The translations under genes were made by a program, and so were the position numbers. Below are positions 1 through 9,928 of a stretch of DNA of 60,953 nt, piece after piece (within the stretch, counting starts at the first letter, position 1; each line of letters opens with the position of its first letter). This DNA is from an uncultured Spartobacteria bacterium (GTDB lineage Bacteria > Verrucomicrobiota > Verrucomicrobiia > Chthoniobacterales > Chthoniobacteraceae), in contig CAIXGS010000041.1 in assembly GCA_903919125.1 (NCBI GenBank), positions 1 to 60,953 of the forward strand, written 5' to 3'. Under the pieces are notes generated by a model. The model did no database searches, was not told the origin of the DNA, and saw only the letters and a list, made by a program, of their open reading frames with translations.

Positions 1-140
1 CGCACCATGCAGCCTACGGAAAATCATGAAGCAAACCGGAGAACAGCCTCCGAGAGCCGGATGCGGGAAATCCGCCCGTCCGGTTCGATGAGGGGGAGAC
101 GCGTGTGGGTGGTTTACCAAACGCGTCTCCCTACTCTATT
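1..140 (+). mobile_element. Group II intron, 3' end (domains V and VI), truncated by window edge
   Basis: Positions 54-86 fold as group II domain V: a 9-bp lower stem (54-62 with 78-86) starting with the AGC catalytic triad, a two-base CC bulge at 76-77, an upper stem (63-66 with 72-75) and a GAAA-containing apical loop. Domain VI follows: an 11-bp stem (94-104 with 121-131) and then CTACTCTATT, which contains the likely branch-point A (about 133) and the usual bacterial 3' intron end at 139-140. The tight D5-D6 spacing and the terminal sequence resemble bacterial class C introns (family knowledge). The ribozyme core and any reverse transcriptase gene would lie left of the window, so intactness cannot be judged. 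The 3' exon is a dispersed repeat (141-190). Confidence 0.85.
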
Positions 141-190
141 CCGCGGTCCCAGGAGAGAAGGACCAATTTTCTTAAAGATTTGGTATTAGT
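141..190 (-). repeat. Dispersed palindromic repeat, copy 1 (interrupted by the group II intron)
   Basis: The reverse complement of these 50 bases matches 9672-9721 at 43 of 50 positions. In the second copy this stretch leads straight into a GCGGAGC-N4-GCTCCGC hairpin. Here that hairpin is cut after the CCGC of one arm and replaced by the intron end, so this is the 3' exon of the intron. Confidence 0.8.
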
Positions 191-9589: not shown

Positions 9590-9928
9590 GTAAGCTTTTC
9601 CGACTCGTCACCGCTGCGCTCGTTACGTTCTTTGTGGTTAAGGAAAGAGTGTTTTCGCGAGTGTTTTTAAGTCTAATACCAAATCTTGAAGATAACTGGT
9701 CCTCCTCTCCCGGGAACGCGGAGCCCCAGCTCCGCTTTGACGCTCCAAAAGCCCAGACAGGCATTGCGGAGCTGGTGCTCCGCGCTCCCAGGCGCTGAGG
9801 TCTTTTGGATCATCCATAAACCTGAAAGAGATGGTATAGGTCTCGGGTTCTGGATTCAAAGCGATGCGGCTTACAGGCCGGTAGGAATTCCGATTCACCA
9901 GGCGTAATTTTTTAGATCTCATTTTCCC
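9590..9928. other. Gene-free stretch holding a dispersed repeat
   Basis: It holds no recognised gene. The middle part is the palindromic repeat at 9672-9801. A minus-strand frame runs through the repeat (fragments such as SAWERGAPAPQCLSG) but is only the repeat translated. The last 120 bp form the upstream region of the Kdo transferase gene. Confidence 0.6.
9672..9801 (+). repeat. Dispersed palindromic repeat, copy 2 (complete)
   Basis: The first 50 bp match the inverted copy at 141-190 (43 of 50). It then carries two hairpins of the same design, GCGGAGC-N4-GCTCCGC at 9718-9735 and 9766-9783. The flanking GGGA (9712-9715) and TCCC (9786-9789) extend the outer arms into one large cruciform. 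The pattern is that of a REP- or MITE-like intergenic repeat; its mobility is not shown. Confidence 0.75.

Follow-up and report, generated by a model that had tools for sequence, protein, structure and literature searches.

A group II intron outside class C inserted at one position of a MITE palindrome in an uncultured Spartobacteria bacterium

Class C group II introns insert next to stem-loops and terminators, and a group II intron found inside the hairpin of a dispersed repeat raises the question of what it recognizes there: the folded structure or the sequence. Such a case occurs at the start of the stretch of DNA analyzed here (the window; 60,953 nucleotides), which is contig 41 of the 87 contigs in a 4.34-Mb assembly of an uncultured Spartobacteria bacterium (G000). 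A 2015 review distinguishes three known target specificities of group II introns, i.e., homing sites, terminators and attC, the latter two being used by class C only (PMC4424553), and a 2022 survey also places types g6, U1 and U2 after terminators (PMC8919778). An initial annotation of the window had proposed that a class C intron, ending at about 139-140, sits in the second arm of a GCGGAGC-N4-GCTCCGC hairpin, that its 3' exon is a repeat found again at 9672, and that this chromosomal repeat serves as a landing site and spreads the intron.

A group II intron occupies positions 1-139 of the window with its 3' end, which comprises the C-terminus of its reverse transcriptase (RT) and domains V and VI. 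The last RT/maturase codons (...HHAAYGKS*) occupy 3-29 on the plus strand, with the stop codon at 27-29, and the same frame runs on in contigs C79 and C10. The group II model RF00029 matches 52-139 over its full length (77 of 77 model positions, 54.1 bits, E 7e-08). Folding places domain V at 54-86, with the AGC triad in GAGAGCCGG, and domain VI at 90-136, with a bulged branch-point A at 133 (both on the plus strand; z -6.2 relative to shuffles); the fold and the last 82 nt of the intron put its 3' end at 139. In G000, the intron ends are GTGCG...CTAT, so that the RNA has both the domain V/VI with bulged A and the GUGYG...AY ends of mobile group II introns. The 3' exon (140-185, plus strand) consists of TCCGCG from the second hairpin arm and the right half of the repeat up to its terminal TTGGTA, and is followed at 186-188 (plus strand) by TTA, the right copy of a 3-bp TNA target duplication. 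Over 50 nt, window 140-189 shows an 88% match to the complement of 9673-9722. The annotation was accurate on the boundary, on the recurrence of the exon and on the hairpin arm, the insertion site lying two bases into the second arm (GCGGAGCTGGGGC^TCCGC).

The repeat around the intron is identified as a 159-bp MITE by its terminal inverted repeats (ends TACCA..TGGTA), its length and its 3-bp TNA duplications. Among 34 full copies from several species (36 rows, two of which represent one copy on both strands), 27 have matching TNA flanks (P 4e-11, with only the middle base free). There are at least 40 MITE copies in G000, and matches in sister species number at least 50 (G009), 31 (G001) and 21 (G007). 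Each MITE holds two inverted 18-bp palindromes, GCGGAGC-N4-GCTCCGC. A full-length, intron-free copy with both hairpins, 160 bp in this case, lies in the window at 9677-9836 (minus strand). One of its hairpins (9718-9735, minus strand) is an exact empty target, GCGGAGCTGGGGC^TCCGC, with the insertion point between 9723 and 9722; the other (9766-9783, plus strand), GCGGAGCTGGTGCTCCGC, is one base off target. G000 retains 88 exact empty targets, and a reversed-pattern control gave 0. Set against ten intron copies, this number corresponds to an occupancy of about 10%.

These intron copies were found by searching G000 with window 1-190, which returned ten intron 3' ends, each of them located at a contig end or close to one and each followed by TCCGCG[T/G/C]TCCC. 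The predicted 5'-junction pattern had ten exact matches, at ten other contig ends (none for the reversed pattern), and the same ten 5' junctions were recovered with an exon-free query, the 5' end of a related intron. Neither the 3' nor the 5' ends depended on the exons for their detection. The intron has a minimum of ten copies in G000, and each of the twenty ends, ten 3' and ten 5', is located at GCGGAGC-N4-GC^TCCGC of the MITE hairpin, with none elsewhere in the genome; the chance of ten of ten intron ends falling anywhere in the repeat is P about 1e-28. For 5' and 3' ends alike, five junctions are in the right hairpin, as in the window, and five in the left, the two sets being on opposite strands of the repeat. 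The MITE is cut off beyond the hairpin in two copies (C74 on the 3' side and C56 on the 5' side). Because every G000 junction is near a contig end, one could suspect that a multi-copy intron and a multi-copy repeat were misjoined in assembly. This is scarcely credible, as the same junctions are present in independently assembled sister genomes, including single contigs that carry both ends (L101 and L151), and 5' and 3' junctions agree in number and arm usage (5+5). The landing site proposed in the annotation is borne out for ten of ten G000 copies and for copies in sister species. Since every copy is at the same base of the MITE palindrome, one selfish element uses another as a landing pad.

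The last 82 bases of the intron are identical in all ten G000 copies and the flanking repeat alleles differ, which indicates that the repeats were in place before the intron and that about six insertions were independent. An alternative is that MITE and intron were moved as a unit by a MITE transposase, so that the ten copies would derive from one or two insertions. The identical repeat alleles in four right-arm and two left-arm 3' flanks fit such spread, but it is improbable in view of the equal use of both hairpins, the opposite-strand insertions in sister species, and the variety of repeat alleles next to identical intron ends (two or more for the right arm, several for the left); about six separate insertions would still be required. 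The idea that the repeat spreads the intron holds in that it offers many sites, and fails in that there is no sign of the repeat carrying the intron.

The G000 contigs with 5' ends stop at intron base 136, and no 5' end could be joined to the 3' end of its own copy. The RT body is absent from this assembly because contigs break within the multi-copy intron, and the only RT found in G000 with PF00078 is not that of the intron. A full-length RT was, however, recovered from sister species, as full-length relatives of the intron occur in G009 (L101) and G006 (L102). The RT of L101, an ORF of 557 aa, contains RVT_1 and GIIM domains and scores above the TIGR04416 cut-off, and the 71-aa RT C-terminus on C10 is 97% identical to it. 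An RT with a maturase domain, another feature of mobile group II introns, is accordingly represented by its C-terminus in the window and by the full ORF in G009. A domain search detected no endonuclease (En) domain in the RT of the full-length relatives.

Sister species also revealed how the same palindrome is used in other ways. A second intron type, with the 5' end GTGCGTTGGGAAAGCTGAAG, is present in G009 and G007 at GCGGAGCCCCAGC^TCCGC, i.e., with an unchanged offset but on the opposite strand of the palindrome. In G007, one contig (L151) contains both ends of a single intron that has an internal deletion, with the MITE on the 3' side. Three scars were observed, each a single case in a draft assembly; two of them (L136 and L129) are short intron remnants in MITE palindromes. 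A MITE in G007 (L136, 1556-1570) retains no more of the intron than its final 14 bases, correctly joined to the 3' exon, which a 5'-truncated insertion or a deletion would leave. In G009 (L164, C102, 1486-1500), a 14-nt intron 3' end is directly followed by an intron 5' end, head-to-tail in a MITE arm, an order that RT template switching would give. In G001 (L129), GTGCGC replaces an arm of the MITE palindrome. The 5.2-Mb G001 genome also has at least 40 matching 3' ends of a related intron (e.g., L220-L259) at diverse sites, mostly before T(A/T)A. These sites rule out repeat specificity of the whole sister lineage, and homing to the repeat is thus a trait of the MITE-inserting sublineage only. 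Separately, domains V-VI of L101 and of L103/L104 are nearly identical, yet their RTs are only about 72% identical, which suggests, from sequence comparison, that RNA parts may have been exchanged between intron lineages.

The assignment to class C, made in the annotation, did not survive comparison. In the RT tree, eight class C references, including GsI-IIC, the Eubacterium rectale RT and an intron beside an integron, form a clade with 100/100 support that excludes the present RT. In addition, the present lineage matches the D1-D4 model RF02005, whereas the five class C references with D1-D4 match RF02001. Class C is rejected on both grounds, although the nearest PDB matches of the RT are solved class C RTs; set apart in this way against class C references alone, the intron is a non-class-C intron.

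The pairing of exon and intron offers a second view of target choice. EBS1 was located at intron positions 197-200 in six of six introns, and it pairs with the intron's own exon at 7, 7, 7, 7, 6 and 5 of 7 positions (39 of 42 in total); among 720 permutations of exons, only the true assignment reaches 39/42. In the second type of G009, EBS1 is GCTGGGG, the exact complement of IBS1 on that strand, CCCCAGC. The match is seen in the type with an available EBS1, since the G000 contigs end at intron base 136, short of 197-200. A putative EBS2-IBS2 pairing, assigned by eye, is AACGGCA/TGCCGTT (7 bp) in the sister intron L104 and only the 3-bp CGC/GCG in the MITE introns.

Could the hairpin itself be the signal? 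A class C intron that recognizes a folded stem-loop, with the repeat hairpin in place of a terminator or attC, would be compatible with a strong palindrome at the site (folds spanning the MITE sites rank among the top 0-6% relative to background windows), with the same offset on both strands, and with the behavior of class C-attC introns, which insert into or directly after the attC stem-loop (PMC7923331). We regard this explanation as unlikely. The RT and D1-D4 comparisons place the intron outside class C, the 7-bp EBS1 pairing exceeds the 3-4 bp of IIC introns (PMC7923331), and for related introns at non-MITE sites, folding of the 5' exon is at background level, L153 being the one exception. 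A hairpin as a general requirement of the lineage is rejected on this ground. Furthermore, the G006 intron L102 lies a single base past an IS end. Because the IS terminus reads GCGGAACTAGGG, L102 has the MITE 5' exon intact at 12 of 13 bases but lacks the opposite arm, and CAGCG replaces TCCGC downstream. No empty site for L102 was found by a search with its joined flanks, the 5' flank being the IS end, and recombination between copies could also explain this site. We lean towards recognition by sequence, the palindrome being important in that either strand then offers an identical arm sequence. In a less likely variant, which we mention tentatively, the MITE would extrude a DNA hairpin whose loop is read by the non-class-C lineage; the arms would be a universal docking structure and the loop the address, and sublineages would have switched strand through a change of EBS1 alone.

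The reading that we favor, with good confidence, is that an endonuclease-less, non-class-C mobile group II intron homes inside the palindrome of the 159-bp MITE. The intron RNP would reverse-splice into GCGGAG-[7-nt IBS1]^TCCGC through EBS1-IBS1 pairing that involves the loop and two arm bases, and EBS2, EBS3 or the protein may make contact with the arm sequences. The RT would then make its copy of the intron at this site, presumably primed from a replication fork, as is the case for other introns that lack an endonuclease. With identical arms on both strands, a change in EBS1 alone could let the intron switch strand, and the MITE would offer about a hundred sites per genome, roughly one tenth of them occupied.

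The closest precedent for a transposable element as host is RmInt1 (IIB3/class D) of Sinorhizobium meliloti, which homes to a site in ISRm2011-2 and whose ectopic sites resemble IBS (PMC5894124). Leaving class placement aside, the two systems share an En-less IEP and a homing site in an abundant mobile element, so that the intron multiplies with the element (PMC5894124). They differ in that the RmInt1 host is an autonomous IS of the IS630 family and here it is a MITE, and that paper describes no sister type on the opposite strand of the same palindrome. Class C-attC introns likewise insert into or beside a genome-recurrent stem-loop (PMC7923331), but they are of class C with a short IBS1, unlike the present RT and RNA. 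Class C introns located after intrinsic terminators also use the neighborhood of a hairpin and an En-less RT, whereas insertion here is inside the stem of a transposon-borne palindrome without a T-run and involves a 7-bp EBS1. In Pseudomonas putida KT2440, group II introns are tied to a dispersed palindrome in that two of nine copies are in REP sequences (PMC1525189), as opposed to ten of ten copies at one base of a MITE. A literature search with scant coverage of subscription journals found no paper on MITE-specific group II introns. Mobile elements that house group II introns are known; in the present case, an entire lineage from several species is bound to a single palindrome of a MITE, with two types exploiting opposite strands. 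The system represents a natural experiment on EBS1 retargeting, a way to ask whether hairpins can be used by non-class-C introns, and an example of a non-coding repeat that sets the copy number of a retroelement.

Several other elements were noticed during these searches. Some sister introns are at sites with a second dispersed motif, ATTGCCGTTTTTAG, of which the window has no copy. The flanks of L023, L111, L153 and L163 contain yet another dispersed palindrome, a repeat ending ATTGCCGTTT(T/C)TAG; it hosts one MITE copy, and some sister introns are located at its end. In G000, contig C75 starts with an intron copy and encodes at 753-1550 (L040) an RT with RVT_1 and without a maturase domain, which resembles the RT of diversity-generating retroelements and is followed by a coding stretch, NNNAANCRAANRNRNNPGNRNNNTGFRPAP, resembling a template repeat. 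A second, different group II domain V/VI (L038; 48.7 bits) is present in the same genome at C30:81867-81943 on the minus strand; its exons are different, and no intact RT lies near it. Finally, G013 has about 12 copies of another intron family (L283-L294), and nearly every one follows GGGAC(A/C/G)GGC or a closely similar sequence.
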